From assembly GCA_946544235.1 (NCBI GenBank), contig CAMNMC010000117.1:1-38442 (forward strand): DNA of 38,442 nt. The letters are read 5' to 3'. Below the pieces are notes generated by a model that worked only from the letters and a program-made list of their open reading frames with translations, was not told the origin of the DNA and did no database searches. Below, one piece after another: positions 22,319-36,572 of this stretch. Position 1 is the stretch's first letter; each line of letters begins with the position of its first letter. A program made the translations under genes and the position numbers. The DNA is from an uncultured Lachnospiraceae bacterium. GTDB taxonomy: Bacteria > Bacillota > Clostridia > Lachnospirales > Lachnospiraceae.

Positions 22319-25081
22319 TTATTCTGCCGAAAGCTTTCCGGCAAGAGCCTTATACACCTCAATAACAGCGCCGTGATGCGTCTTAACAAAGTCACCGTCA
22401 CCGGCAGCCGCAGCTTCCTCAAGCTCTTTGGCCTTTTCAAACATCTCTGATGCTCCTATCGTTTTGGAAGCACTCTTGACAGAGTGTATCAGTATCTTGT
22501 AATCCTTCAGATTATCAGCCTTCAGGAAATCCTCGAGCTGGCTTATCTTCTCAGGTGCATCATTCGCATAATCATTTATTATCTCAAGATAAAACTCCTC
22601 ATCATTGCCACAGTAGGTAAGACCATCTGTTGTATTTAAACCTATTTTTTCAAGTTCAGCCAGTGTAAGCTTTCCACCTGTTTCCATATTGTCTCCTTCT
22701 GTCACTTCAAATGTCATTATTTCAAACTCTTCCGTATCCGCCTTCCCGGCAGTCTTTATTTCATCGCCTGATCTCACTCTGTCACGAGACCCATCCGATG
22801 TCTCATCAGATGTCTCATCAGAACCCGCGCCGAAAAGTTCATCCACCAAAACGGTTTCTTCCATCTGCACAGGACTTTCGGTTTCCGGAAGCATCTCATT
22901 TTCATCCGAACCTGTCACTGCGCCTGTCAGATATTTCTTAAATATCTTCTCAAGCCCGGCCAGCTCGATTGGCTTAGAGAGATAATCATCAAAGCCCGCC
23001 TCAAGGTACTGCTCCCTCGCACCCACTACTGCATTTGCGGTAAGCGCGATCACCTTGGTATCGCCAACCAGGTCATTATCCTTCAGATATTTCAAAGTCT
23101 CAAGGCCGTCCATCTCAGGCATCATATGATCGAGGAAAAGCATATCGAAACGCTGTTCCCTCATCACCTTGATAGTCTCTTTACCTGAACCGCATATGGT
23201 AGGTTTGATGCCGAAGAGCTTCATCAGATTGGCTGCAACCTTGCGGTTTACTTCATTATCATCCGTAAGGATTATCTTTGCATCCGGTACAGTGAGAGTC
23301 ACCGTGCTGGCCGCACTCTTGCTGTGGTGCTCCTTAGCCGTAACACTGTATTCACCGACCGGTGACTTATCCACGATCTCCAGAGGAAGTTCAAAATAGA
23401 ACTCCGATCCTACGCCGTATTCACTCTTTATCTTAAGCTCACTTCCCATCATGATGAGAAGTCTTGTTACTATGGAGATGCCCAGTCCGGTACCTTCGAT
23501 ATGGCGGTTCTTCTTCTCATCAACACGCTCGAAGGAGATGGAAAGCTTATCAATGTCTTCTTTCCTTATACCTATTCCGGTATCCTTTACCGAAACCAGA
23601 AGACTGCATTTGTTATTCTCTGTCTTCAGATTCTTTATCGATAACTGAACATAACCTTTTTCAGTGTATTTAACCGCATTTGTCAGAAGGTTCATTATAA
23701 CCTGACTGATCCTGACATCATCGCCAAGAAGCTTCGAAGGCACTGTTTCATCAAGGTCGATCTTAAGCGCCAGTCCCTTGGTCTTCGCTCTCTCACTAAT
23801 GGAATTGACAAGTCCGTTCACCAGTATCTTGATCTCAAATTCCGCAGGAACCAGGTTCATCTTGCCGTCCTCGATCTTGGAAAAATCAAGGATGGTATTT
23901 ATTATCGAAAGAAGCGTCTTGCCTGCACTCTTGATATTTGTTGAATAATCCAGAGTGTTCGGCTCCTTTGATTCATGAAGGATCATCTCGTTCATTCCGA
24001 GGATGGCATTTATAGGAGTTCTTATCTCGTGGCTCATGTCTGCCAGGAAATCACTCTTGGCTTTATTTGCACTGTCGGCAGCAGATTTCTCGAGCTTCAG
24101 AACCTTTGCCTCGTAGTCCTTCCTTCTCTCGCTCTCCTTCATCTCTTCCATCCTGAGATAGTTCTTGCGCTCACTTCTGTAGCCCAGAAGATAGAAGGTT
24201 GAAATAAGGATAAATACTATTATTGCGATGATGATGGTTACAAAGAGAAGCATCATCGGAGCGCTGTAGAGTTCGGCATTCTTGGTGATAACGACCAGAT
24301 ACCACTGATCCATAACCTCATCGACAAATACTGTGCATTTTTCGTCGTCGATCTTCGTCGTAAAATTTCCTTTGCCGGTCTTCACAACCTTCTGAAAGAA
24401 ATCATGCTGTTCCTCCAGATCATTATAATTCTTTCCGTTCTCTCTCCTGTCATGGTGAGCGATCACCATTCCGTCCTTGTTTACAACATAGCCGTAACCA
24501 TAGCCGTTGATCTGGATTTCCTCAACGATCTCCTGAACGCCGTTAAGCGTAAGATCAAGGGCAAGTGCGTTGTTGTTATCGGACAGAGCCTTGCCGACCG
24601 AAATGATCACATTGCCGGTCTGTGCATCAACATAAGGCGGAACGATGACTACCTCACCCTCATGGGAAACGATAAATTTATACCAGTCTCTTGCCTTCGG
24701 ATCATAATCTTCAGGTGGAACCCAGCCAACGCCGTCGACATATACATCGTTGATAACACCGTAGATTCCGGTGTAGCTCTCATCAAACTGTTCCTCTGTT
24801 CCTGAGGACTCTCTGGTAATATATTCGATTATTTCTTCACTGGATGCACCGTTTGAAGCCATATGATCAACTGTATCGGCTGCAACCCACAGGACACTCT
24901 TCGCAGTATTGAGATAATTCTCAAGATCAGCCGTAATAGCTGCCGTCTTGTCTTCACCCAGTTCCTGAACAGATGAAAAGGCTGTTCTGAATACGACTCT
25001 CGCACTAAAAATAACCATAAGTGTCATCAGAATAAAGGTTGCCGTAAGTATTAGTATCAGATTTTTTCTGCTTCTCATCAT
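22319..25081 (-). CDS. Hybrid sensor histidine kinase (dCache-like, HisKA, HATPase, REC, HPt)
   Basis: 920 residues from ATG 25081. The frame extends to GTG 25135, but the promoter at 25146-25174 would start transcription only a few nt before that GTG, and GGGA precedes 25081. Order: helix 7-30; extracellular dCache-like sensor 31-270 (DPKARDWYK, VDAQTGNVIISVGKAL); helix 275-298; coiled coil 305-345; HisKA with H351 in DMSHEIRTPINAILGM; HATPase with NLLTNAVKY, DTGIGI and GTGLGI; receiver with D651 (LFLDHMMPEMDG); acidic linker 720-800; HPt with H866 in IHSVKSASKTIGA. The complete His-Asp-His relay suggests phosphate passes to a separate response regulator, most simply the divergent one at 25253. 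Confidence 0.93.
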   Translation of the reverse strand: MMRSRKNLILILTATFILMTLMVIFSARVVFRTAFSSVQELGEDKTAAITADLENYLNTAKSVLWVAADTVDHMASNGASSEEIIEYITRESSGTEEQFDESYTGIYGVINDVYVDGVGWVPPEDYDPKARDWYKFIVSHEGEVVIVPPYVDAQTGNVIISVGKALSDNNNALALDLTLNGVQEIVEEIQINGYGYGYVVNKDGMVIAHHDRRENGKNYNDLEEQHDFFQKVVKTGKGNFTTKIDDEKCTVFVDEVMDQWYLVVITKNAELYSAPMMLLFVTIIIAIIVFILISTFYLLGYRSERKNYLRMEEMKESERRKDYEAKVLKLEKSAADSANKAKSDFLADMSHEIRTPINAILGMNEMILHESKEPNTLDYSTNIKSAGKTLLSIINTILDFSKIEDGKMNLVPAEFEIKILVNGLVNSISERAKTKGLALKIDLDETVPSKLLGDDVRISQVIMNLLTNAVKYTEKGYVQLSIKNLKTENNKCSLLVSVKDTGIGIRKEDIDKLSISFERVDEKKNRHIEGTGLGISIVTRLLIMMGSELKIKSEYGVGSEFYFELPLEIVDKSPVGEYSVTAKEHHSKSAASTVTLTVPDAKIILTDDNEVNRKVAANLMKLFGIKPTICGSGKETIKVMREQRFDMLFLDHMMPEMDGLETLKYLKDNDLVGDTKVIALTANAVVGAREQYLEAGFDDYLSKPIELAGLEKIFKKYLTGAVTGSDENEMLPETESPVQMEETVLVDELFGAGSDETSDETSDGSRDRVRSGDEIKTAGKADTEEFEIMTFEVTEGDNMETGGKLTLAELEKIGLNTTDGLTYCGNDEEFYLEIINDYANDAPEKISQLEDFLKADNLKDYKILIHSVKSASKTIGASEMFEKAKELEEAAAAGDGDFVKTHHGAVIEVYKALAGKLSAE

Positions 25082-25145
25082 ATTATTTTTCCCAATCACA
25101 CATGACGCAAAACGTCCGTCTAAAAAAACTTTCACCCATTTATAC

Positions 25146-25174
25146 AGTATACTGATATAAAGTATTCATTTCAA
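25146..25174 (-). promoter_or_regulatory. Sigma-A promoter of the hybrid kinase gene
   Basis: Minus strand TTGAAA (25174-25169), 17 nt, TATACT (25151-25146); each box has one mismatch. The implied transcript start near 25139 argues for the ATG at 25081 as the kinase start. Confidence 0.7.
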
Positions 25175-25184
25175 CATCTTTTAC

Positions 25185-25213
25185 TGTAAATATCAGATAA
25201 AATCTGTTATGAT
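25185..25213 (+). promoter_or_regulatory. Extended -10 promoter of the response regulator with a spacer palindrome
   Basis: TGTTATGAT (25205-25213) is an extended -10 element. The -35 position (25185-25190, TGTAAA) is weak, as is common for this class. The palindrome CAGATAAAATCTG (25194-25206) fills the spacer, where a bound protein would block RNA polymerase. It sits between the divergent kinase and regulator genes, so autoregulation is possible. Confidence 0.5.
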
Positions 25214-25252
25214 ATATTTTGATTTCGGATAGCGGTCAGCCATACCGATAAT

Positions 25253-27727
25253 ATGTCTGATCATTTTAATCTGATATACCGGACCGGGATCAAAATATAT
25301 CGCATAATATTAAACTACATGAAAGGAAAATATCCGACTCTGTCACAGCCGGATCAGATGATAAACATGGCCGATTTAATAGCACTCGTCGATGACGATC
25401 CGTTAAATCTGAAAATAGCTCAGAATATTCTCAAGAAAAATGGTATGGAGGTTGTCGCCATGAGTTCCGGCGCACAGCTTCTTGATTTCCTGCGAAAGGA
25501 TACGCCTGATCTTATCCTGCTCGATATCATGATGCCTGAAATGGACGGCTTCGAAACGCTTACGAAGATCCGTGATCTCGAAAACGAGCTTGATATGGAT
25601 GATATTCCTGTAATCTTTCTCACCTCAGACGAAGGCAACAGTTCCGAGACGCGCGGTTTTGAGCTGGGAATCTCCGACTACATCAGAAAACCTTTCCAGC
25701 CTGCGGTTCTTATCAAGAGGATCACAAACGTTTTAAAGAGGCAGGCCATCATCCAGAGATATCACGAGGAAGCAACCACCGATACTCTCACAGGACTTCT
25801 TAACAAGGGTGCTACCAACAACAAGCTGGAGATGCTCATAAAGAGAAAGCCGGGCTGTCTCATGATGATAGACCTGGATGCTTTCAAGCTTATTAATGAT
25901 ATTTACGGCCACAATGCCGGTGACAAGATACTTATCAGCTTTTCCATCCTGCTGAAGGGCTTCCTCGGTCCCGATGATATTATCGGAAGAATGGGCGGAG
26001 ATGAATTCACAGCATTTTCTACCTCACTTAAGACTGAAGAGGATCTGAAGGAATTCTCCGATAATCTTAATACCACTCTCATTCTTGATGCCAAGAGGAT
26101 ACTCGGCGAAGAGATGGATATTCCTCTCGGCGCCTCGATCGGTGCAATATTCCTTGACGGCAAGGGCATAGAATACGTTGATGCACTTAAGCTGGCAGAC
26201 AAGGCTCTTTATAATGTAAAAAATAACGGCAAACACGGCTACAGCCTGTATTCCGGAAATGACGATGACGAAGAACAGGATGTCCTGAACATGAGAACTC
26301 TCTCAATGATCCTTTCAGAGAGAAATATGTCATCAAACGCTCTCAAGCTTGACAGCTCATCCTTCGTGGGCGTATACCGTTTTGTAATGCGTTACGTAAT
26401 GCAGTACCACAGAAACGCCTGCAAGCTTCTTATCACGCTCCATCCTTCGAAGGGACTCACCACTGAAGAAGCTGATGATTATTTTGAACAATTCGGTAAG
26501 CATGTGGAGGAAACTCTCCGCAGAAGCGACCTTGTCATGCAGGTCAGAAAGAATGTATATTTCGTCCTGCTCACTGATATCAGAGCCGGTGCCGACGAAC
26601 AGGTTGCCGGAAATATCATAAGAAACTGGCGTTCAAAGAATGGTGACGTTCTGCAGATATTCTATGAGACAGATTTTCTTGAATCGGAAAAGATCTATAC
26701 CGGCAGCGACAAGAAGCTCTGGGTTGCGATAGTTGACGATGATGAGATGAACCGTAAGCTGGCAGACAGAATTCTATCCAAGAACGATATAGTTGTAACA
26801 AAGCTTGCTTCGGGCGAGGAACTGATCAACTTCCTTAGCGATCACCGTCCTGATCTCATCCTTCTCGACGTAAATATGCCCGGAATGGATGGCTTTGAAA
26901 CCCTCGATATACTTCGATCAAAGGAGACAGAGATTGCGGACATTCCTGTTGTCTTCCTTACTGCAGAGAATGATATCGATACAGAGAAGAAGGCTCTCGG
27001 ACTCGGAGCCAAGGACTTCATCAAGAAGCCTTTCATCCCTGAGATTCTTACACTCAGAGTTAAGCAGATAGCCGAACTTCTCCGACTTCAAAAGCGTCTC
27101 GAGGATGAGGTTTCCAAGAAGACCAAGGAGAACGAGGAGCTGTTCCTCGATGTCGTAAGTTCTCTTGCCGGAGCCATCGATGCCAAGGATACTTATACAA
27201 ACGGTCACTCTTCGCGAGTTGCCGAGTATTCCAAGGAGATTGCCCGAAGATACGGCTACAGCATGAAGGAGCAGAGCGACATCTATATCATGGGACTTCT
27301 CCATGATGTTGGCAAGATCGGTGTACCGGATTCAATTATAAATAAACCGGGCCACCTCACCGATGAAGAATTTGAACAGATCAAGAGCCATCCTGTTATC
27401 GGCTCACAGATACTGAAAAATATAAAAAAGATGCCGAAGCTCTCAACAGGAGCACGCTGGCATCATGAGAAATACGATGGAACCGGATATCCTGACGGCC
27501 TTGCCGGAGAAGAAATTCCTGAAGAGGCTCGTATCATAGCTGTTGCGGATGCGTATGACGCCATGTCAAGCAAACGAAGCTACCGTAATATCATGCCTCA
27601 GGAGAAGATCCGCAGCGAGATCATCCGCGGTTCAGGAACCCAGTTTGATCCACGCTTCGCAGAGATCATGGTCAGAATGATTGATGAAGATACGGAGTAT
27701 GTTATGAGGGAAGGCGGAAAGGAATAA
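25253..27727 (+). CDS. Response regulator REC-GGDEF-(degenerate GGDEF)-REC-HD-GYP, cyclic-di-GMP turnover
   Basis: Up to 824 residues; the family start would be near M39 (ATG 25367), and no candidate (25253, 25319, 25367) has a clear ribosome site. First receiver: D91 in LILLDIMMPEMDG. GGDEF domain at about 175-335 with DTLTGLLNK, DLDAFKLINDIYGHNAGD and an intact GRMGGDEF (GGDEF at 248-252) but no RxxD inhibitory site before it. Residues 365-475 look like a second, degenerate GGDEF (RRSDLVMQVRKNVYFVLL). Second receiver: D539 in LILLDVNMPGMDG. HD-GYP: HSSRVAEYSKEI, LLHDVGKIG (HD 684-685), HHEKYDGTGYPDG (GYP 745-747), VADAYDAM. It should both make and cleave cyclic-di-GMP, gated by two receivers. 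The divergent hybrid kinase is the likely phosphodonor. Confidence 0.93.
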   Translation: MSDHFNLIYRTGIKIYRIILNYMKGKYPTLSQPDQMINMADLIALVDDDPLNLKIAQNILKKNGMEVVAMSSGAQLLDFLRKDTPDLILLDIMMPEMDGFETLTKIRDLENELDMDDIPVIFLTSDEGNSSETRGFELGISDYIRKPFQPAVLIKRITNVLKRQAIIQRYHEEATTDTLTGLLNKGATNNKLEMLIKRKPGCLMMIDLDAFKLINDIYGHNAGDKILISFSILLKGFLGPDDIIGRMGGDEFTAFSTSLKTEEDLKEFSDNLNTTLILDAKRILGEEMDIPLGASIGAIFLDGKGIEYVDALKLADKALYNVKNNGKHGYSLYSGNDDDEEQDVLNMRTLSMILSERNMSSNALKLDSSSFVGVYRFVMRYVMQYHRNACKLLITLHPSKGLTTEEADDYFEQFGKHVEETLRRSDLVMQVRKNVYFVLLTDIRAGADEQVAGNIIRNWRSKNGDVLQIFYETDFLESEKIYTGSDKKLWVAIVDDDEMNRKLADRILSKNDIVVTKLASGEELINFLSDHRPDLILLDVNMPGMDGFETLDILRSKETEIADIPVVFLTAENDIDTEKKALGLGAKDFIKKPFIPEILTLRVKQIAELLRLQKRLEDEVSKKTKENEELFLDVVSSLAGAIDAKDTYTNGHSSRVAEYSKEIARRYGYSMKEQSDIYIMGLLHDVGKIGVPDSIINKPGHLTDEEFEQIKSHPVIGSQILKNIKKMPKLSTGARWHHEKYDGTGYPDGLAGEEIPEEARIIAVADAYDAMSSKRSYRNIMPQEKIRSEIIRGSGTQFDPRFAEIMVRMIDEDTEYVMREGGKE

Positions 27728-27746
27728 TAACGAATAAGGGATAAAG

Positions 27747-27864
27747 TATTGTTGCGAACCTAAGAGAACGGTCACCCAACGCGTTGCTTCGCAACTCAAT
27801 GATGAGATAGTACATTATTGCAAATCTAAGATCTGATCACACAACTCGTTGCTGCGCAACTCAA
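27747..27864. repeat. Two imperfect direct repeats of about 52 nt
   Basis: Segments 27747-27800 and 27815-27864 align along their length: both run TTGC, then a CTAAGA block, then GGTCACCCAAC or GATCACACAAC, then CGTTGC(T)TCGCAACTCAA or CGTTGCTGCGCAACTCAA. Each contains a short GTTGC...GCAAC hairpin. They lie in the 260-nt gap between convergent genes. Confidence 0.6.
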
Positions 27865-27908
27865 ACGTTTGCTGACGCAAACGGGTTGTGCGCCCATCTC
27901 TTAGATTT
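27822..27908. other. Cloverleaf-like three-way inverted repeat
   Basis: Outer arms 27822-27831 and 27899-27908 (AAATCTAAGA/TCTTAGATTT) pair fully. A second helix pairs 27840-27845 with 27885-27890. Inside are two hairpins: GTTGC/GCAAC (27848-27852 with 27856-27860) and CGTTTGC/GCAAACG (27866-27872 with 27877-27883). It overlaps the second direct repeat and could be a mobile palindromic element or a structured RNA. Confidence 0.55.
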
Positions 27909-27919
27909 CTAATGAATCC

Positions 27920-27970
27920 AGAAAAAAATACCGGCATTTGCAAGTAAACTTGCATGCCGGTATTTTTTCT
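27920..27970. terminator. Bidirectional intrinsic terminator
   Basis: AGAAAAAAATACCGGCA pairs with TGCCGGTATTTTTTCT, and TGCAAG pairs with CTTGCA around a TAAA loop. U-runs follow on both strands, so it can end both the response regulator transcript (plus) and the rplM-rpsI transcript (minus), 18 nt past the rpsI stop. Confidence 0.85.
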
Positions 27971-27987
27971 GTATTCGCAATAATGCA

Positions 27988-28383
27988 CTATCTCTTTGAG
28001 AACTGTGGAGCACGTCTTGCACCCTTGAGACCGTATTTCTTTCTCTCCTTCATACGAGGATCTCTTGTAAGGTATCCTGCAGACTTGAGAACTGGTCTGA
28101 AATCAGCTGATACTGTAAGAAGGGCTCTTGCAATACCATGTCTGATAGCACCTGCCTGGCCTGTGAAACCGCCGCCGTATACATTTACAAGTACGTCATA
28201 CTTTCCGTCAGCACCTGTAGCAACGAGTGGCTGCTTAACGATAACCTTAAGTGTCTCTAATCCGAAATACTCATCGAGTGACTTCTTGTTAACTGTTATA
28301 TTTCCTGAACCAGGTACAAGATAAACTCTAGCAACACTGCTCTTTCTTCTTCCTGTACCATAGAATTTAGCTGCCTTTGCCAT
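27988..28383 (-). CDS. rpsI: Small ribosomal subunit protein uS9
   Basis: 131 residues. The N-terminus [21 protein letters not shown], the middle [19 protein letters not shown] and the C-terminus [17 protein letters not shown], whose basic tail reaches the ribosomal P site, are all diagnostic. It follows rplM by 19 nt in the universal rplM-rpsI pair and ends just before the shared terminator. Start ATG 28383 has GGAGGAAG a few nt upstream. Confidence 0.97.
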
Positions 28384-28402
28384 TTACTTCTTCCTCCTTC
28401 TA

Positions 28403-28837
28403 TTAATACTTGATCTCAAGTACTTCAGGCTTCTGTGCCTGCTGCTTGTGATCCGGACCTGCATAAACAAAAAGCTTGGTAAACATGCTTCTTCCAAGAG
28501 GTCCCTTAGGAAGCATACCCTTAACTGCGTGCTTGATAACTTCTGTAGAATCCTTAGCAAGCTGATCCTTAAGGGTTATTGACTTAAAACCACCGATATG
28601 GTCTGAATGGCTGTAGTATACTTTCTCGTTCAGCTTATTTCCTGAAACCTTGATCTTATCTGCATTGATTACGATTACATAATCACCTGTGTCAATGCTT
28701 GGTGTAAATGTAGGCTTATTCTTGCCTCTTAAAATCTTTGCGACCTCTGATGAGAGACGTCCTAATGTATGTCCGGTGGCATCAACTACGTACCACTTTC
28801 TATCAATCGTTGATGGGCTTGCAACAAAGCTCTTCAT
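28403..28837 (-). CDS. rplM: Large ribosomal subunit protein uL13
   Basis: 144 residues from ATG 28837 ([20 protein letters not shown]), the family length and start, with GGAGGAAC 8 nt upstream. The frame is open up to 28930, but that extension is the RNA leader. [17 protein letters not shown] and [19 protein letters not shown] are family landmarks. The gene has its own strong promoter and a leader of about 105 nt. Expression is therefore independent of the reverse transcriptase gene that precedes it. Confidence 0.97.
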
Positions 28838-28942
28838 CTGACGTGTTCCTCCTTGATATATTCTATTAAATAACTGTTCATGTAACAAGACGTGCATCAC
28901 TATTCCGGGGCATGGTATAGAGTCAGCCACTACTCGTCACAG
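28838..28942 (-). promoter_or_regulatory. rplM leader, candidate L13 autoregulatory region
   Basis: About 105 nt lie between the predicted transcript start and the rplM ATG. Firmicutes rplM leaders are known to carry a structured L13-binding element. Short complementary blocks exist here (CTAT/ATAG around CCATGCCCCGGA), but I could not match the known consensus by eye. Confidence 0.4.
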
Positions 28943-28948
28943 AAAGGT

Positions 28949-28977
28949 ATTATATGATACTTTATCTTATATGTCAA
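28949..28977 (-). promoter_or_regulatory. Perfect-consensus sigma-A promoter of rplM-rpsI
   Basis: Minus strand TTGACA (28977-28972), exactly 17 nt, TATAAT (28954-28949). The -35 box begins four nt after the stop codon of the reverse transcriptase gene, so that gene occupies the space up to the ribosomal promoter without damaging it. Confidence 0.88.
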
Positions 28978-28980
28978 ATA

Positions 28981-30246
28981 TTATTTTTCATAATATTCAT
29001 GAACCAGACTCCTGTAGCCCAGCTTCTTCAAATCTTCGTAGGAAGCTTTAAATCTGCCCTTATTCCGCCTTCCCGTCAGAAGATATCTGATACACTCCTG
29101 TGCATAATGATCTATAGCCTTCAGGCTGTCTGTCGTATTTATTACCGGAAAGAACCAGTATGCCCAGCTGAGCTCATTATCGGCAGGACTTTCCAGAAGC
29201 TTCCTGTTAAATACTCTGATAAAGGCCTTGGCACATTTCTCGGGCTGCACCTCATTTCTGTCGCCCCAGCGTTTCAGGGCACGCGCCTTTCTCCGCATCT
29301 TAGCCTTAAGCTTCTTTATCGTGACAGGCGCAATATCTATCTTTCCCCTGCAATATGAAAAACCAAGAAAGGTCCAGCCTTCCTCCGGAGAAAAAAAGCT
29401 TTCCTTATCAGGATTTATCTTCAATCCTCTCCTCTCGAGAAAGCCTCTGATTCTTTCAGCCTCTACCTGCAATTCTTCAGCAGAATCGGCCAGAACGATT
29501 ATATCGTCAGAATATCTGGAATATATCACCACGCCGGCGTCATATGCCATATTCCCATCATTTTCCGGGCAGCCGTCATTTGCCATATATCCATTATGTT
29601 TTCCGCTGCCGTCATAAGATCTGTCAAGCTCCATCAGATAGAGATTTGCAAGAAAGGCAGCTACAGGCGTTCCGGCCATTATTCCTTTTCTTTCCTCAAT
29701 AACGTTTCCTCTGAAGCTAACTCTGTCCTCCGTAAGCAGTCCCTTAAGAAAGAGAAACAGCTTCTCATCCTCCTTCATGACTTCTTCAAGAATCGGCAGA
29801 AGTCTGTCTACAGGCACGGAATTAAAATAATCACTGACATCCGCTTTATAAGCGTATTTTCCATCAATGCCCTCGCTTGCAACCAGTCTTCGCACGGCAT
29901 CCTTCGCAGTTCTACCCGGTCTGAAGGAATAGAGACCCTCAGAAAAAATACTGTCATATTTTCGGAGCATAAGCCAGGTCAGAAGCTTGAGCGTGATATT
30001 TTCAGCTTCAGGATAGGTATATACCGTTCTCTTCTTTCCCGTGCTGATCTTGCTGATGATACTCTTTTCCGGAAGAGGAAAAGGCTGTCCGGATGCGATA
30101 CGTTCATATACCTCAAGATAACCCTTCGTATCGATAAAATCCCTCAGAAGCTTAGTAAACCTTTTCTCGCTTATCAGTGAAGTTCTGTAATTGTAAAAAT
30201 TCTCCCACACCTCCGGAGAGGCAAGGTTGTCTAATATGCTATTCAT
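28981..30246 (-). CDS. Stand-alone reverse transcriptase (group II intron-like fingers/palm, unclassified)
   Basis: 421 residues. RT motifs in order: GKKRTVYTYP (70-79), LYSFRPGRTAKDAV (105-118), motif A KADVSDYF with D136, motif B GIMAGTPVAAFLANLYL (188-204), motif C YSDD (245-248), GLKINPDKE (274-282), and motif E WTFLGFSY (291-298), then a basic thumb-like region (310-330) and about 90 more residues. Catalytic Asp residues D136, D247 and D248 are present. Motif B lacks the usual Gln-Gly and Ser-Pro pairs. Residues 210-238 are a Gly/Asn/Asp-rich insertion before motif C. No endonuclease, no X/maturase signature and no intron RNA is obvious. It lies between truA and rplM, normally adjacent. 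Possible classes: unknown-group defence RT or domesticated group II-like RT. Confidence 0.92.
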   Translation of the reverse strand: MNSILDNLASPEVWENFYNYRTSLISEKRFTKLLRDFIDTKGYLEVYERIASGQPFPLPEKSIISKISTGKKRTVYTYPEAENITLKLLTWLMLRKYDSIFSEGLYSFRPGRTAKDAVRRLVASEGIDGKYAYKADVSDYFNSVPVDRLLPILEEVMKEDEKLFLFLKGLLTEDRVSFRGNVIEERKGIMAGTPVAAFLANLYLMELDRSYDGSGKHNGYMANDGCPENDGNMAYDAGVVIYSRYSDDIIVLADSAEELQVEAERIRGFLERRGLKINPDKESFFSPEEGWTFLGFSYCRGKIDIAPVTIKKLKAKMRRKARALKRWGDRNEVQPEKCAKAFIRVFNRKLLESPADNELSWAYWFFPVINTTDSLKAIDHYAQECIRYLLTGRRNKGRFKASYEDLKKLGYRSLVHEYYEK

Positions 30247-30285
30247 TTTCCAAAGTTATATAGAAACAGCAAGGGAAGATGTTAA

Positions 30286-30399
30286 ATTCAGGAAAATTCC
30301 TGAATGTACCGGATCGTACACAGATCAACTGCCTGCGAAGTGTTGAGTCCGGTGCGATACAACACCGGTTCACCGATCTGTGCCTGATCTGCCACAGGC
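30286..30399 (-). ncRNA. Structured region upstream of the reverse transcriptase, candidate RNA
   Basis: The 269-nt gap 30247-30515 holds dense inverted repeats: ATTCAGGAA/TTCCTGAAT (30286-30294 with 30297-30305); CACAGATC/GATCTGTG (30319-30326 with 30375-30382) enclosing two mutually exclusive helices, GTGTTG/CAACAC (30340-30345 with 30360-30365) and CCGGTG/CACCGG (30349-30354 with 30363-30368); and GCCTG/CAGGC (30382-30386 with 30395-30399). It is AT-rich on both sides. It could be an RNA partner or template of the RT, a riboregulator, or a palindromic element. Confidence 0.4.
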
Positions 30400-30515
30400 G
30401 CAAAATGCATTCCCTTACTGTTATATTTGTCTTATATGCTAATGATTCCCTGTCTTATCTGTTGTTATTTTTATGAATTATACATGTATTTCAATTGACG
30501 GCAGGCTTATTGTGA

Positions 30516-31079
30516 CTAAAGTGCAAGTGCCTTGCGGGTTCTCTCGATAACATAGGATTTGGTATTCCACCATCCCTCATGATCATAATAATATCTGAGA
30601 TATGGCACTCCCGTCCTTCTGCATTCTTCTCTCAGCTTATATCTTCCGCTGTTACTGTTAAGGAGCTCAACTACCAGCGCCTTTACACCTCCGCTGTAGA
30701 AGGTAAATACGGTTATCTTCCCCGATTTTTCCTTCTCTATCTGATATGCCGGGAATTCATTTCTGAATATTTCTTCAAAATACTGTATATAGCTGCCCTT
30801 ATAATTAAACTGATTTTCCTCAGCCGGCATTACGGGTCCCCATGAATTACCTGATGGCTGAATCATAGCACCGGTATTTGAATAACCGCCATCATTATTT
30901 GGAACAACGGTTCCGCTGTAATTATTACCGCCGCCGATCGGCTGTCCATTCAAAATAACTCCCTGACCGGAATTATTTCCCTGACTGTTACCCTGATTAT
31001 TGCCTGTTCCGAGATTATTCAAAAGATCCCCCACAGCTTTACCTGCACCTTCCGAAAAAAGCTTTGAAAAAAGTCCCAT
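30516..31079 (-). CDS. Small protein with Gly/Asn-rich N-terminus and conserved-looking C-terminal domain, unknown
   Basis: 187 residues, not assigned. An N-terminal amphipathic stretch (MGLFSKLFSEGAGKAVGDLL) leads into a Gly/Asn/Ser-rich linker (about 22-80). A compact domain at 95-185 has ITVFTFYSGGVKALVVELL, RYKLREECRRTGVPYLRYYYD and HEGWWNTKSYVIERTRKAL. The strand-strand-helix order with Glu 138 and Lys 148 loosely recalls PD-(D/E)XK-like folds, but this is only a pattern impression. GGAGG lies 6 nt before the ATG, the best ribosome site in the area. It sits 65 nt after truA and 269 nt before the reverse transcriptase. Confidence 0.75.
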   Translation of the reverse strand: MGLFSKLFSEGAGKAVGDLLNNLGTGNNQGNSQGNNSGQGVILNGQPIGGGNNYSGTVVPNNDGGYSNTGAMIQPSGNSWGPVMPAEENQFNYKGSYIQYFEEIFRNEFPAYQIEKEKSGKITVFTFYSGGVKALVVELLNSNSGRYKLREECRRTGVPYLRYYYDHEGWWNTKSYVIERTRKALAL

Positions 31080-31144
31080 AAATTACCTCCTTGTAACCTC
31101 TTTCAACATATTTACACTTCTCACCCACATCAAAAATAATTATA

Positions 31145-32059
31145 TTATAAATACCTGATTTCCACAAGCGTAAGTCCTCTGGCCTCTGCGGTATCTCCCG
31201 CCCTGCTTCTGTCCTTACTTTCGATAATTTCCTTAACCGCCTCCGGAGCGAGTCTTCCGCTTCCGACCTCCATAAGGGTTCCGGCAATGATGCGGACCAT
31301 ATTATAGAGGAAGCCGTTGCCGGTTATTCGGATCGTTATCATCCTGCCCCTCCAGACTTCATCTCTATTTTCATTATCTGAAGATATTATTCCTGCCGCT
31401 TCTGAATCTTTATTATTCTCACAAATCGCTGAACCGGAATAACTCATATCAGAATCATTCATACCAGGATAATGCGTTTCAGAGTCACTCTTATCAGAAT
31501 CACTCACATCAGAATCACTCACATCATGTACGATGATATCACACGAATATATCGTCCTTGTCTTGTCGACCACACTGCTTCCGGCCGAGCAAAAGGCTGT
31601 AAAATCGTGCTCTCCGACGATGTATGAAGCAGCTTCCTGCATTTTTTCGGTATCAAGAGGGATATAGCAGAACTTCGAATACAGCCTGTAAAGCGGATTC
31701 TCTATCCGATCATTATATATCTTATATTCATAGGTTTTGACTGTATCCGCGTGTCTCGGATGAAAATCATCAGCCACCTCGAACGATTCTCTGACGCGTA
31801 TATCTTCGGGAAGTCTCTGGTTCAGAGCCATCTTAAGCTTATCGGCAGGAATACGTGTTTCAGCATCAAATACACACACATTTCCGAGTGCATGAACTCC
31901 CGAATCGGTACGGCTCGCGCCTATCACCTGCACCTCCTGTCCCAGAAGGTCTGTAATAGCCTGATTCAGAACACCCTCTATGGTTATGCCGTTCGGCTGC
32001 ACCTGCCAGCCGCAGTACGCTGTTCCGTCGTATGAAACTGTGAGTTTATATCTTTTCAT
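31145..32059 (-). CDS. truA: tRNA pseudouridine synthase A with a Ser/Asp-rich insertion
   Basis: Converts U38-U40 of tRNA anticodon arms to pseudouridine. Residues 1-179 and 237-304 match TruA: YDGTAYCGWQVQPN (10-23), GASRTDSGVHALGNV with catalytic D52, HDFTAFC (151-157), GNGFLYNMVRIIAGTLMEVG (247-266). Between them, residues 180-236 form an extra segment with repeated Ser-Asp pairs (SDSDVSDSDKSDSE), making the protein 304 residues against about 245-250 usual. The gene follows ecfT by 146 nt in the conserved ecfA-ecfT-truA order. Confidence 0.95.
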   Translation of the reverse strand: MKRYKLTVSYDGTAYCGWQVQPNGITIEGVLNQAITDLLGQEVQVIGASRTDSGVHALGNVCVFDAETRIPADKLKMALNQRLPEDIRVRESFEVADDFHPRHADTVKTYEYKIYNDRIENPLYRLYSKFCYIPLDTEKMQEAASYIVGEHDFTAFCSAGSSVVDKTRTIYSCDIIVHDVSDSDVSDSDKSDSETHYPGMNDSDMSYSGSAICENNKDSEAAGIISSDNENRDEVWRGRMITIRITGNGFLYNMVRIIAGTLMEVGSGRLAPEAVKEIIESKDRSRAGDTAEARGLTLVEIRYL

Positions 32060-32205
32060 CTTTGCAACCTATTCTGATAATTCAAATATCAATCTGTATT
32101 AAATATTTCACATTGATACCATCTGTTCCCAATACCAAAACAGTGAATTATATATCACCATTCATATTCGTCGACCTGATTTTATGATTGTCAGTATCAA
32201 TAGCT

Positions 32206-32940
32206 TTATAACAGTATATTGAGCACTATCGTAAGTATCAGTGCAGCGATAACACAGAAGAGATACAGTGCATCATTTCCGTCATAGCGGAGCGGATCCA
32301 CCTCGGTCCTGGGCTCTGTACTGTCATAGCATCTGATATCCATGGCATTTGCAAGCTTCTCGGCCTTGTCGAGTGTCTTTCTGAACAGCGGTATCATTAT
32401 TGAAATACTGTTTTTAAGGCGCTTAAATATATTTCCCATGGTTATATCCGCGCCACGGGAGGCCTGCGCCACTCTGATCTCGTTCATATCATTTCCGAGT
32501 ATCGGCAGGAACATCATCGCAACTGTCATGGTCATGGCTGTGTCTTCCTTCACATGGAAGCCCTTTCTGATGCCCTTCAGAAGCTCCCTTGCCGTCGTCG
32601 TCTTGATCATGATGACACACATAAAGGCTGTCATCAGAAACTTCAGAAATATAAAGAGTGCTCCCGTAAAGCTCATAAATATCAGATTGATCAGGAATCC
32701 GGCCACAAGAAGCATAACAGCCACCCTCATCGACCTGATATACCTGAATATACTGACTCCCGAAAGAGCTATGCTCGCGATAAGTAAGGCCGCGGGAATC
32801 AGAAGCATTATGTATTTTTTTGAAAGGATGCATATAAGTGCAAAGAGCAGCACCGTATACAGCTTGGCTCTCGGGTCAAGGCTGTGTACGAAAGATTCCC
32901 TGTCCTCATATCTTCCTCTGTTTACATCGTAGAGATACAT
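32206..32940 (-). CDS. ecfT: ECF transporter transmembrane component EcfT
   Basis: 244 residues, about six membrane helices. The coupling motifs that contact the ATPases are visible: QASRGAD (about 159-165), where family members have Ala-Arg-Gly, and ANAMDIRCYD (about 202-211) at the second site, where the usual Arg-Gly is replaced by Arg-Cys. The start MYLYDVNRGRYEDRESFVHSLDPRAKL matches family members. It lies 241 nt after the fused ATPase gene with tandem repeats between. Together they should energise vitamin uptake by separately encoded S components, as group II ECF modules do. Confidence 0.92.
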   Translation of the reverse strand: MYLYDVNRGRYEDRESFVHSLDPRAKLYTVLLFALICILSKKYIMLLIPAALLIASIALSGVSIFRYIRSMRVAVMLLVAGFLINLIFMSFTGALFIFLKFLMTAFMCVIMIKTTTARELLKGIRKGFHVKEDTAMTMTVAMMFLPILGNDMNEIRVAQASRGADITMGNIFKRLKNSISIMIPLFRKTLDKAEKLANAMDIRCYDSTEPRTEVDPLRYDGNDALYLFCVIAALILTIVLNILL

Positions 32941-33075
32941 GATTCTAACTTTCTATTTCTATCTATTATCAGGCAGGAATTATACGATTCGTCATATTGT
33001 ACTGTTATCAGCCAATGAAAACGCACCGGCTTCCATACGGTTCAGCGGATTATTTTCCGACATTCATATATTTTT

Positions 33076-33183
33076 AGCGGATGATCACAAACCGGCTTAC
33101 ACATAATTCTCAGTGGATGATCACAAAACGGCTAACACATAATTCTCAGCGGATGATCACAAACCGGCTTACATATAACTCTC
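33076..33183 (-). repeat. Three 36-bp tandem repeats after the ECF ATPase gene
   Basis: Units 33076-33111, 33112-33147 and 33148-33183 differ at a few positions (plus-strand core GGATGATCACAAA, CCGGCTTACACATAA). The first bases of a fourth, diverged copy coincide with the last codons of the ATPase gene (GTAATCTGCCACTGA). Each unit keeps the reading frame and each boundary reads TGA or TAA. Upstream sequence 33020-33060 holds a weaker relative. Confidence 0.85.
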
Positions 33184-34726
33184 AGTGGCAGATTACGATA
33201 ACACATCTGCCCGCCTCGATATAGCTCTTCACAACGCCCGAAAGCGCATCGATACCACCCTCATCAAGTCCGGCATCGGATTCATCGAGGATGAGATAGT
33301 CCGGCGTATTTGCAAGAATACCGGCAATTCCGACTCTTCTCTTCTCACCGCCGGAAAGAGCCTGCACGGGTCTTTGCCAGAGCACTTCATCAACATTCAT
33401 ATATGTAAGAGCATTTCTTGCCGATTTTACGGCACAGTCATTGTCAAAGCCCATATTTTTCGGTCCGAACATAACATCCTTTATGACGGAATCAGCAAAG
33501 AGCATCTTGTCCGGATTCTGAGCAACATAACCAACTCTCCTGCGGAGCAAATTGATATCAAAAATTATGCCCTCCTCCAGATTGCTCTCCGAGCTCTGTC
33601 TGACCGGATTCGGTCTGCGAAGCTTCGTGACCGGAAGAGCCTTGCCTTCAAGGAAAATACGTCCTTTTTTAGCCATCAGAAGGCCGTTAAGCAGCATTGC
33701 AAGCGTTGATTTACCGGAGCCGCTCTCGCCCTTCACAAGATATACCCTGCCCCTTTTAAAAGCATATGACACGTTCGCAAGTATCCTCTCTCTGCCATAG
33801 CCAAAGCTGACACGGTCAAGCTGAAGTGCCGCGGTATCATCTACAAGCTCTACCCTTTCCACGCTTTCAACCATAGCATAGTCGTCATTATTCTCTCTTA
33901 GAACTTTTTCTTCAATATATATCGGTTTTATCTCACTGTTAATTTCGGTGCGATTAATGGTACGTGTAAAAAGATCAATCTCCGGCACCAGTCCGGGAGC
34001 ATCCTTCAGTGAAACCGAAAATGCTGCCATTTCCTGCCCGTCGCTGTCGGAAATATCATCCGCCACGTCAGAATACCCTTCAACAACCTTACCGCTATCA
34101 AGCCTTATGACCCTGTCGCAGTATTTAGCAGTATCTTCTCTCTGGGTTATCAACAGAACAGTCTGTTTATTCGTCCTGGCCTGAGAGACAATATGCTCGA
34201 GCATTTTTGCCCTGACCTTATCACTCTGCATCGAGAAGGCTTCATCCAGCACCAGAATATGTGGTTCCATCAGAAGTATTGCCGCAACTGCTGCTCTCTG
34301 TTTCTCGCCTTCGCTGAAGGTTCTGAGATTCCTGTCAGCCTTATCAAGAAGGCCGAATCGTTTCATGAGTCCCTTTGTCTTCTTAACAGTCTCATCTACC
34401 GGTGTATTAAGATTTTCCAGACCAAACATTATATCTGCAGAGGCAATATCAAATACATGGTTATCCTCGGGATTCTGGAGCACTACAGCGCATTTTCTGT
34501 GCAGCCTTGTTATATTTCCAGGGAAACTGGTATCAAAGCCCGCTACAACGACCTTATCAGGCTCCTCAGGCATGTAGAGACCTGCAATATAGGCTGCAAG
34601 GGTTGATTTACCCGAGCCATTCGGTCCGGCTATCATAACTATTTCACCCTCATCAATATCTAGGCTTATACTGCTGCCCTCTATATATGGAATTTTAAGA
34701 TTTCTTATCTTGATAATGCTTTCCAT
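33182..34726 (-). CDS. ecfA: Fused two-domain ECF transporter ATPase (EcfA1-EcfA2-like), ends at the second H-loop
   Basis: 514 residues with two ABC ATPase domains in one chain; most Firmicutes have two genes. Domain 1: Walker A GPNGSGKST (34-42), Q84, signature FSEGEKQR (137-144), Walker B LVLDEAFS (D161, E162), but the H-loop position in LLITQRED is Q195 rather than His. A linker of about 80 residues follows. Domain 2: Walker A GESGSGKST (333-341), Q403, signature LSGGEKRR (457-464), Walker B LILDESDAGLD (D481, E482), and H514 as the very last residue. Family members usually carry 40-80 more residues after this His. The gene follows the alpha operon as in other Firmicutes. Confidence 0.9.
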   Translation of the reverse strand: MESIIKIRNLKIPYIEGSSISLDIDEGEIVMIAGPNGSGKSTLAAYIAGLYMPEEPDKVVVAGFDTSFPGNITRLHRKCAVVLQNPEDNHVFDIASADIMFGLENLNTPVDETVKKTKGLMKRFGLLDKADRNLRTFSEGEKQRAAVAAILLMEPHILVLDEAFSMQSDKVRAKMLEHIVSQARTNKQTVLLITQREDTAKYCDRVIRLDSGKVVEGYSDVADDISDSDGQEMAAFSVSLKDAPGLVPEIDLFTRTINRTEINSEIKPIYIEEKVLRENNDDYAMVESVERVELVDDTAALQLDRVSFGYGRERILANVSYAFKRGRVYLVKGESGSGKSTLAMLLNGLLMAKKGRIFLEGKALPVTKLRRPNPVRQSSESNLEEGIIFDINLLRRRVGYVAQNPDKMLFADSVIKDVMFGPKNMGFDNDCAVKSARNALTYMNVDEVLWQRPVQALSGGEKRRVGIAGILANTPDYLILDESDAGLDEGGIDALSGVVKSYIEAGRCVIVICH

Positions 34727-34887
34727 TTTGAAATACTGCTCTGACAGTCTATTACAGTAAATTCAACACCGTATATAAAATGAATATATGACGTACATAA
34801 TCACATCCATTGTGTGATGAATCAAATTAACTTCCTTTGGATACTTTAGCACATGAGGCGCCTGTTCGCAAGACTCGTAAACGTGAT

Positions 34888-34915
34888 AAAGGCTGTCGGT
34901 CACCCGACAGCCTTT
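34888..34915. terminator. Intrinsic terminator-type hairpin after rplQ
   Basis: AAAGGCTGTCGG (34888-34899) and CCGACAGCCTTT (34904-34915) pair perfectly around a 4-nt loop, starting 19 nt past the rplQ stop. The U-run is five long on the plus strand but only three on the minus strand used by rplQ, so some read-through into ecfA is likely. Confidence 0.7.
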
Positions 34916-34933
34916 TTGTATTTGAAAATACGA

Positions 34934-35470
34934 TTAAACTAACTCTAAGATTACTTCAAGAGCTCCGTCGCCCTTTCTCTGACCGATCTTAACGATTCTT
35001 GTGTATCCGCCTTCACGTCCAGCATACTTAACAGCATACTCGTTGAAAAGCTTATCTGTAAGATCAACCTTCTTTGTAGCAGCCTTCTTACCAGCCTGAG
35101 CTGTAGGAACTTCTGTTACAGGATAGAGAACCTTAAGCATCTCACGTCTTACATGAAGTCTTGATGGGAGATCCTTCTTGATCTTCTTCTCAACTTCATC
35201 AAATACTGTAACCTTCTTGCCGTCAATAACGTTCTTTACTCTGTTGCCGTCCTTATCTTTTCTTGCAACCTTGGTCTTAACAGTAACTTCTTCGAAGTTA
35301 TCCTTTTCCCTGATTGCCATCTTGATAAGCTTTTCAGCTATCTGACGAACTTCCTTAGCTCTTGCGTCTGTAGTCTTTATCTTACCATAGTTAAGAAGCA
35401 TTGTTACCTGATTTCTGAGAAGTGCCTTTCTCTGATCAGCCTTCTTACCAAGTTTTCTGTACATTGCCAT
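34934..35470 (-). CDS. rplQ: Large ribosomal subunit protein bL17
   Basis: 178 residues from ATG 35470 (MAMYRKLGKKADQRKALLRNQ), with GGAGG 9 nt upstream; the open frame to 35506 is leader. The usual bL17 is about 115-125 residues. Here an extension of about 50 residues (KVARKDKDGNRVKNVIDGKK and neighbours) lies between the conserved N-terminal half and GREGGYTRIVKIGQRKGDGA. I have the impression that such extended bL17 is common in Lachnospiraceae, which supports the taxonomy. It closes the alpha operon. Confidence 0.96.
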   Translation of the reverse strand: MAMYRKLGKKADQRKALLRNQVTMLLNYGKIKTTDARAKEVRQIAEKLIKMAIREKDNFEEVTVKTKVARKDKDGNRVKNVIDGKKVTVFDEVEKKIKKDLPSRLHVRREMLKVLYPVTEVPTAQAGKKAATKKVDLTDKLFNEYAVKYAGREGGYTRIVKIGQRKGDGALEVILELV

Positions 35471-35600
35471 TTTTATTTTCCTCCTTACCCCTGGCAGGGT
35501 CTTCACTGTGCTTACTAATTCCGATCCGTTAACAGATCAGCCTCCGTCAAAGCGTAAGCTTCTCCATCCGAACCGACTTCAGCCTAAGTGGTGATATTAA

Positions 35601-36572
35601 CTATTCCTCAACGTCCTGATTTGTTCCGTCGTTAAGTGAATAACCAAGCTCCTTGAGCTTTGCGAGAACCTCTTCAAGAGACTTACGTCCGAGGTTACGA
35701 ACCTTCATCATATCCTCAGGTGTCTTCTTGCAAAGTTCCTTAACTGTATTTATACCTGCTCTCTTAAGACAGTTATATGAACGAACTGAAAGCTCAAGTT
35801 CGTCAATAGTGATATCTGACTTGCTGACAGGCTCTTCCTTAATTGTGTCAACGATAACGCTTGCGTCCTTAGCAGTCTCTGAAAGATTAATGAAAAGATT
35901 CAGATGCTCGCTGAGAACCTTTGCTGCAAGGCTGACAGCCTCATCAGGTGCAAGTGATCCGTTTGTAAATACATCGAGTGTAAGTTTGTCATAGTCTGTG
36001 ATCTGACCTACACGGGTATTCTCTACAGTGAGGTTTACTCTCTGTACAGGTGTGTAGATAGAATCAACTGCTATTGTATCGATAGTTGTATCAAGCTCTT
36101 TGTTCTTGTCAGCGCTTACATAACCACGACCGTTTGTGATAAGAAGCTCCATCTCAAGTCTTGCCTCAGGGCCGCTGAGATTTGCGATAACAAGATCCGG
36201 ATTAAGGATCTCGATGTCGCCGTCAACTCTGATATCTGCAGCAGTAACAACAGTTGTTCCTGATGCTTCGATATAAGCAGTCTTAGGCTCGTTTGATGAT
36301 GAATTATTCTTGATAACAAGATCTTTGATATTTAAAACTATCTCTGTTACGTCTTCCTTAACTCCCGGAAGAGAACTGAACTCGTGGAGAACGTCCTTGA
36401 TCTTAACAGCGCTTACTGCTGTTCCCGGAAGAGATGAAAGCATAATTCTTCTGAGAGAATTACCCAGTGTTGTACCATAGCCTCTTTCAAGTGGCTCAAC
36501 TACAAATCTGCCATACTTATTGTCGTCTGACTTATCAGCGATCTCAATTCTTGGCTTTTCAAATTCAAACAC
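35601..36572 (-). CDS. rpoA: RNA polymerase alpha subunit
   Basis: 323 residues. The N-terminal assembly domain has [28 protein letters not shown]; the C-terminal domain, which contacts UP elements and activators, has [23 protein letters not shown] and [20 protein letters not shown]. Both domains and the linker are complete. It follows rpsD by 122 nt containing a strong hairpin and is followed by rplQ at 130 nt. Confidence 0.98.

Follow-up and report, generated by a model that had tools for sequence, protein, structure and literature searches.

A reverse transcriptase (RT) of group UG26, a structured RNA of the Rfam family RT-5 and a small partner protein form one module on a contig from an uncultured Lachnospiraceae bacterium (GenBank assembly GCA_946544235.1, contig CAMNMC010000117.1), the whole 38,442 nucleotides (nt) of which we call the window. 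That this is a UG26 RT module we regard as practically certain. As the best explanation of the whole, to which we give a probability of about 0.5, we propose that it works like DRT9 and DRT10: the RT would make an RNA-templated, protein-primed repeat complementary DNA (cDNA), which the partner would sense. The main parts are:

28981-30246, minus strand: UG26 RT, 421 residues (PADLOC model RT_UG26, alignments, AlphaFold2)
29503-29514, minus strand: YSDD catalytic motif of the RT, intact
within 28981-30246, minus strand: C-terminus of the RT, ending in GYRSLVHEYYEK
30265-30422, minus strand: RT-5 RNA, modelled at 158 nt with its closing stem, both ends inferred (Rfam, folding, our own RNA model R1)
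30516-31079, minus strand: partner protein, 187 residues (open reading frame, PADLOC model RTasCOG2852, AlphaFold2)

The group of the RT is set by its score against PADLOC-DB 2.0.0, where RT_UG26 matches it near full length with 552.8 bits (E 9e-167). The next model, UG27, reaches 101.1 bits, RT_UG17 87.9 and Drt9 70.6; NCBIfam, Pfam and PHROGs return nothing beyond generic RT or sub-threshold matches. Y245, D247 and D248 of the YSDD motif are invariant in an alignment of the window RT with 26 relatives. In 26 of these 27 RTs a tyrosine follows an LV motif in the C-terminal tail, in a column that varies, and the reference of the exception is cut at the end of its match. The AlphaFold2 model has a mean predicted local distance difference test score (pLDDT) of 88.6. 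When the UG26 profile is run against the PDB, chains of telomerase reverse transcriptase (TERT) rank lowest, in the final two of 30 rows with E about 8e-6; group II, Drt2, Drt3a and retron chains rank above them. In the window RT, about 24 residues (29536-29607, RT residues about 214-237), with NDG-rich repeats and mostly below pLDDT 50, form an insertion that the 26 aligned relatives lack. An assignment of the RT to AbiA was tried and rejected; this rejection and those of other RT classes given below rest on model scores or repeats.

The RNA lies just upstream of the RT gene. RT-5 (RF03026) matches it in full length at 30274-30403 on the minus strand with 77.6 bits (gathering cut-off 45.7), the sole above-threshold Rfam match in the window, and R1 matches 30254-30422. 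Folding of 30257-30422 gives -64.1 kcal/mol (z -5.68), a value that none of 200 shuffles equals. The minimum-energy free fold contains a closing stem, P0, then hairpins and an open loop of 8 nt between the last hairpin and P0. The elements of the RNA, all on the minus strand, are:

30410-30422, minus strand: P0 closing stem, 5' strand AACAGUAAGGGAA (covariation, free folding)
30265-30277, minus strand: P0 closing stem, 3' strand UUCCCUUGCUGUU (covariation, free folding)
30393-30399, minus strand: pseudoknot, 5' strand GCCUGUG (covariation)
30331-30337, minus strand: pseudoknot, 3' strand CGCAGGC, in the apical loop (covariation)
30349-30368, minus strand: extra apical-loop hairpin CCGGUGUUGUAUCGCACCGG, an insertion relative to the Rfam consensus, mostly paired in the minimum-energy fold
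30286-30305, minus strand: 3' hairpin directly preceding the candidate template and a candidate boundary of it (fold)

We tested a structure composed of P0, a 5' mini-hairpin, the Rfam main stem and the pseudoknot on an alignment of 64 RNAs, 63 of them distinct. In the full structure 92.4% of cells are paired, as against 78.3% after shuffling (0 of 500) and 40-51% when the structure is slid along the alignment, and 31 of its 33 pairs show changes on both sides. Taken alone, the pseudoknot is paired in 99.3% of cells with both-side changes in all seven pairs, and P0 in 82.3% with both-side changes in 10 of 11 counted pairs. Both elements are absent from the model that made the alignment, but they were named by eye from largely the same sequences. 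Both pseudoknot strands are unpaired in the Rfam consensus. The pseudoknot and the long closing stem are thus additions to the Rfam RT-5 structure, with strong covariation. Long apical-loop inserts, different from the one in the window, also occur in a few other RT-5 relatives.

The partner matches RTasCOG2852 over residues 1-185 with 197.9 bits (E 3.7e-59). It is built of an amphipathic N-terminus, a low-complexity linker and a C-terminal alpha-beta-beta-beta-alpha-beta-alpha domain (residues about 95-187), and its AlphaFold2 model has block means of 92-98 pLDDT from residue 81 on. The family COG2852 is, we assume, Vsr-like. The C-terminal domain is predicted to be nuclease-like and to be without a conserved catalytic set. 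When we looked for the acidic residues and lysine of PD-(D/E)XK enzymes, E138 was the sole invariant residue among D/E/K/H in 51 close partners, and a more divergent alignment leaves only Y176 and R180 invariant. Foldseek finds no match for the partner in the PDB at E <= 0.001, a result that leaves room for families absent from the VIA list. Pfam names no family for the domain, and a Pfam scan of the partner together with 17 relatives, at E up to 1, shows no SLATT family. Variants of this architecture exist: a 371-residue protein (L023:359-1474) carries the partner domain at its C-terminus behind a long, coiled-coil-looking N-terminus that replaces the amphipathic start, and at another locus (L030:1659-2225) the partner-like gene comes after the RNA and before the RT rather than ahead of both.

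These identities change the standing of a preliminary description of this stretch, made from its letters and open reading frames. It had seen a small protein, a structured non-coding stretch and a stand-alone RT at the junction of truA and rplM, which the open reading frames and the fold confirm, and the layout of RT, RNA and partner protein holds. Its suggestion of an undescribed system was wrong, because RT, partner and RNA each match a catalogued model (UG26, RTasCOG2852 and RT-5). What appears undescribed in the open-licence literature is the function and mechanism of UG26: we found there no functional study of it, nor the RNA features and mechanistic predictions given here. The RT-n RNAs reportedly go back to Weinberg 2017 and the UG classes to Mestre 2022.

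Do the three parts travel together? They do. A profile-based scan of genome contigs yielded at least 500 candidate stretches encoding relatives, so that UG26 with RT-5 is widespread in Clostridia, and we kept the best 80 loci, most of them titled as rumen or gut Clostridia. The RNA model, built from 30 sequences, matches the window and 77 of the 80 loci (none in L068, L072 and L090); two of the 77 matches are weak or cut, by a run of N in L065 and by the contig end in L055. The partner profile matches 71 of the 80; of the nine partner-less loci, three have no RNA either and two are close to the end of a contig. Starting from the RNA, we fetched 30 loci out of 34 RNA matches, the window among them, and a tblastn search with the window RT found a match in every one. 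Of a further 42 loci that bear the RNA, the RT profile matches 41 and the partner profile 22 (profile made without them) or 28 (profile including some). In 50 loci with clean coordinates the median distance is 17.5 nt from partner stop to RNA model start and 20 nt from RNA end to RT match.

The module is patchily distributed. RF03026 occurs in 32 of the 397 family genomes, in 15 of 391 from a sample of the class and in 2 of 299 from a sample of the phylum; these last two, which are in the class sample as well, are the genome of the window itself and a second one of its family. Of 61 genomes of the genus, 12 hold a UG26 match below E 1e-80. Besides the window, 11 such loci were fetched, with RT-5 in two and a partner match in none. 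The two (L154, L155) have no partner match in the fetched stretch; the RTs of nine others (L156-L164) score as UG26 at E about 1e-86 to 1e-108 with no RT-5 or partner match nearby, and in L160, L161 and L163 the upstream DNA looks, by eye, like a gene for an ABC transporter ATPase. In the phage and plasmid collections every match stayed below 60% identity. One plasmid match (H16, L180), considered as a possible DRT relative, reads as an RT of group II-intron type. In 245 Clostridia-class genomes we found no UG17 or UG27 match at E <= 1e-80, a result that does not establish their absence since the control genomes gave none either.

Where might the RNA be copied? The fold points to the open loop between the 3' hairpin and P0:

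30278-30286, minus strand: candidate template loop UUUAACAUC, its first U able to pair in the hairpin

The candidate is thus 8-9 nt long, with 8 nt unpaired in the fold. The cDNA unit predicted from it is GATGTTAAA for the window, and the relative L022 would have a repeat unit of the type AACTTTGAAAG. In the relatives the last hairpin is followed by UUYAA or a variant of it (in many members), a few variable bases and the U-rich start of P0, and the linker from hairpin to P0 measures 7-11 nt in 103 of 109 RNAs. In several of them the same bases stand at both ends of the linker, in an arrangement A-B-A':

L043: GATTT-AAC-GATTT, the first bases within the hairpin arm
L022: CTTTC-AAAGTT-CTTTC
L028: CTGTT-AAATT-CTGTT

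Our pool held 120 RNAs, 113 of them unique. When 109 of the 113 were shuffled within each sequence (L055, L130, L124 and L125 were left out because they are truncated or their stem register is doubtful), the longest repeat averaged 3.25 nt as against 2.79 nt in the shuffles (0 of 1000), and repeats of at least 4 nt were found in 34.5% as against 15.2%. Between sequences, the template ends of 111 RNAs (87 unique; L055 and L130 dropped, row L015 in the wrong register) were permuted; a subset ending in TTT gave a weak signal (26 of 2000). In both tests related sequences are not independent. We consider the position of the template at this loop likely.

To explain these observations we propose the following mechanism. 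The RT would bind the RT-5 RNA, and closing stem, pseudoknot and 3' hairpin would hold the short single-stranded loop at the active site. DNA synthesis would be primed from a hydroxyl residue near the C-terminus of the RT itself, and the RT would copy the loop repeatedly, slipping back on matching bases at the loop ends. The product could be single-stranded tandem-repeat DNA like that of DRT10 or, more generally, some defined repeat, as made by DRT9 and DRT3a. The partner, with its nuclease-like fold, may then read either this DNA or the RNA-protein complex and pass the response to the membrane through its amphipathic N-terminus. The models for this scheme come from PMC12632851, PMC12483538 and PMC12489045. 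DRT10 consists of a UG17 RT, a SLATT protein and a non-coding RNA, and adds repeats like a telomerase on an A-B-A' template, with priming from a C-terminal serine or tyrosine (PMC12632851). DRT9 consists of a UG28 RT and a non-coding RNA with a conserved poly-uridine template and makes poly-dA (PMC12483538, PMC12489045), probably primed from C-terminal tyrosines (PMC12483538). The steps differ in how far we trust them: that the RNA serves the RT as cofactor and template seems to us quite probable, and that a tandem repeat is made from the loop by slippage is a tentative idea.

Several findings weigh against this proposal. The between-sequence permutation of template ends is not significant (203 of 2000), and in the window itself the ends match over 2 nt only, although 2-nt matches are found in two working DRT10 systems (PMC12632851). 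Because the two tests disagree and the window match is this short, we call the repeat mechanism only possible. The spacing from last hairpin to closing stem, just 5-14 nt overall, could have a purely structural reason. All this would fit an RT and RNA that defend together and make no repeat by slippage, the RNA being mainly scaffold or primer, or a longer stretch of it serving for a single round of copying or for circular copying of the DRT2 kind. We find this somewhat unlikely: the loop lies where the templates of DRT3, DRT9 and DRT10 are described, and the UUYAA-like core recurs though the bases after it vary. The partner could also be an active nuclease effector, switched on by the RT product, which E138 as the only invariant candidate residue, with Y176 and R180 alone in the divergent alignment, makes quite improbable.

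Neighbours also speak, if anything, for a domesticated RT with a cellular role outside defence. The genes beside the module are ordinary chromosomal ones. For 76 of the 80 loci (four near-duplicates left out) a simple caller took the nearest complete open reading frame of up to 700 residues on each side, 138 in all, and the 126 of at least 100 residues, some of them spurious (one is antisense to a partner), were scanned against PADLOC at E <= 1e-10. They matched 41 PADLOC families, as against 4 for a crude, unmatched control of 89 reading frames from contig starts of the window's genome. Family 'mad3' has 5 of 126 as against 3 of 89 and 'mad8' 2 as against 1; the rest of the 25 neighbour families listed have one gene each, many being the same E1-E2 or PDC-S01 genes by their names. 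There is no clear defence enrichment among these nearest neighbours, from which we do not conclude that enrichment is absent. Viral contigs gave only five weak matches to the RT (22-26% identity), and the nine same-genus loci without RNA and partner, three of them beside an apparent ABC transporter ATPase gene, point the same way. Set against this are the patchiness in family and genus, with differing sites, and the statement that characterised UG enzymes are implicated in phage defence (PMC12632851). We rate a domesticated role as unlikely and anti-phage defence as the most likely purpose, on balance probable from this kinship to UG enzymes and the patchy distribution. Finally, the RT stands at a junction where relatives have none, as a selfish retroelement caught between truA and rplM would. 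Such an origin is highly improbable, given the scores of the models concerned: retron_St85 reaches 46.2 bits (cut-off 235; other retron models have no row at E up to 1), the group II intron model TIGR04416 105.7 (cut-off 300) and Drt2 58.1 (equivalog cut-off 390), Drt3a and Drt5 are likewise far below their cut-offs, and no group II or other intron RNA family matches in the window. In 24000-36000 there is no template/variable repeat pair and no long direct repeat pair besides one 36-nt tandem repeat. As far as model scores and repeats reach, the reported absence of retron and diversity-generating marks therefore stands.

The module sits among the following genes, all read on the minus strand (27988-32059) in the order truA, partner, about 270 nt without a long gene, RT, rplM and rpsI:

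31145-32059, minus strand: truA (list of open reading frames)
28949-28977, minus strand: rplM promoter abutted by the RT gene, TTGACA-17-TATAAT, 12 of 12 positions (promoter match)
28403-28837, minus strand: rplM, 144 residues (list of open reading frames)
27988-28383, minus strand: rpsI (list of open reading frames)

The RT gene does end right at the rplM promoter, as first described; with its stop codon at 28981-28983 and the promoter at 28977-28949, the gap is 3 nt and not 4. A similar promoter and leader precede rplM in most of 13 aligned same-genus relatives. The premise that truA is directly followed by rplM is partly borne out. In 10 of 22 rplM loci from relatives truA ends about 160-291 nt upstream, namely in 6 of 13 same-genus loci (directly, at 176-291 nt) and 4 of 9 more distant ones; in nine, four of them same-genus, no truA was found in the fetched stretch. 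Three same-genus loci (L134, L135, L137) hold a different gene in the junction, for a related membrane-like protein of 278-298 residues. The insert is thus present or absent by genome. In addition, one genome without an insert at the junction (G1073) has UG26 and RT-5 on another contig, and so has G1077, whose junction is not resolved. Since the junction insert varies within the genus and UG26 with RT-5 occurs elsewhere, the module is patchy and not tied to the truA-rplM site. Further out, the 36-nt unit is repeated in tandem at 33070-33196, overlapping 15 nt of the 3' end of an ABC transporter ATPase reading frame (33182-34726), and beside rpsI an open reading frame (25253-27727) encodes an 824-residue protein with what we take to be two receiver-like domains, a GGDEF-like domain and an HD-GYP-like end.

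What would the proposed mechanism mean? Each RT-5 RNA predicts its own short DNA repeat, and the anatomy of the RNA makes UG26 directly testable. If the mechanism is right, telomerase-like repeat synthesis reaches beyond DRT10, and a catalytically dead nuclease-like domain with an amphipathic N-terminus is a new type of partner among RT defence systems. At its boldest, and here we speculate on something we consider unlikely, UG26 would be a second telomerase-like defence enzyme beside DRT10. RT-5 would be a minimal "telomerase RNA" with a pseudoknot, its short template loop enclosed between hairpin and closing stem, and the RT would make protein-linked tandem-repeat DNA. A dead-nuclease domain would have been repurposed as the reader of this DNA, with an amphipathic helix as its membrane tether (or, in one relative, with a long helical N-terminus fused to it). 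A pseudoknot in a telomerase-like bacterial RNA would then bear on the proposed bacterial origin of telomerase.

Compared with known systems, the window stands closest to the UG26 and RTasCOG2852 entries among the 'DRT' candidates of PADLOC: RT and partner match over nearly their whole length without any family-level difference, the RT differing from the 26 aligned relatives by its insertion. Its RNA shares with RT-5 the place just upstream of the RT and differs by pseudoknot, closing stem and extra apical hairpin. With DRT10 it has in common an RT that comes with a structured RNA and with a small partner predicted to link to the membrane, a short loop that a closing stem encloses below a stem-loop, and a hydroxyl residue near the C-terminus of the RT. 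It differs in that the RT is UG26, not UG17 (553 as against 88 bits), that the partner has no SLATT match in Pfam, and that the order is partner, RNA, RT, whereas the DRT10 RNA lies upstream of the SLATT gene. DRT9 resembles it in C-terminal tyrosines and in the RNA-templated RT that we propose here; the window differs by a loop, UUUAACAUC, without a poly-U tract, by the additional partner protein and by a score of 71 bits with the Drt9 model. The match of the UG26 profile to TERT chains is in line with the link between class 2 UG enzymes and TERT published in PMC12632851, although, at 421 residues, the window RT is much shorter than telomerase RT.
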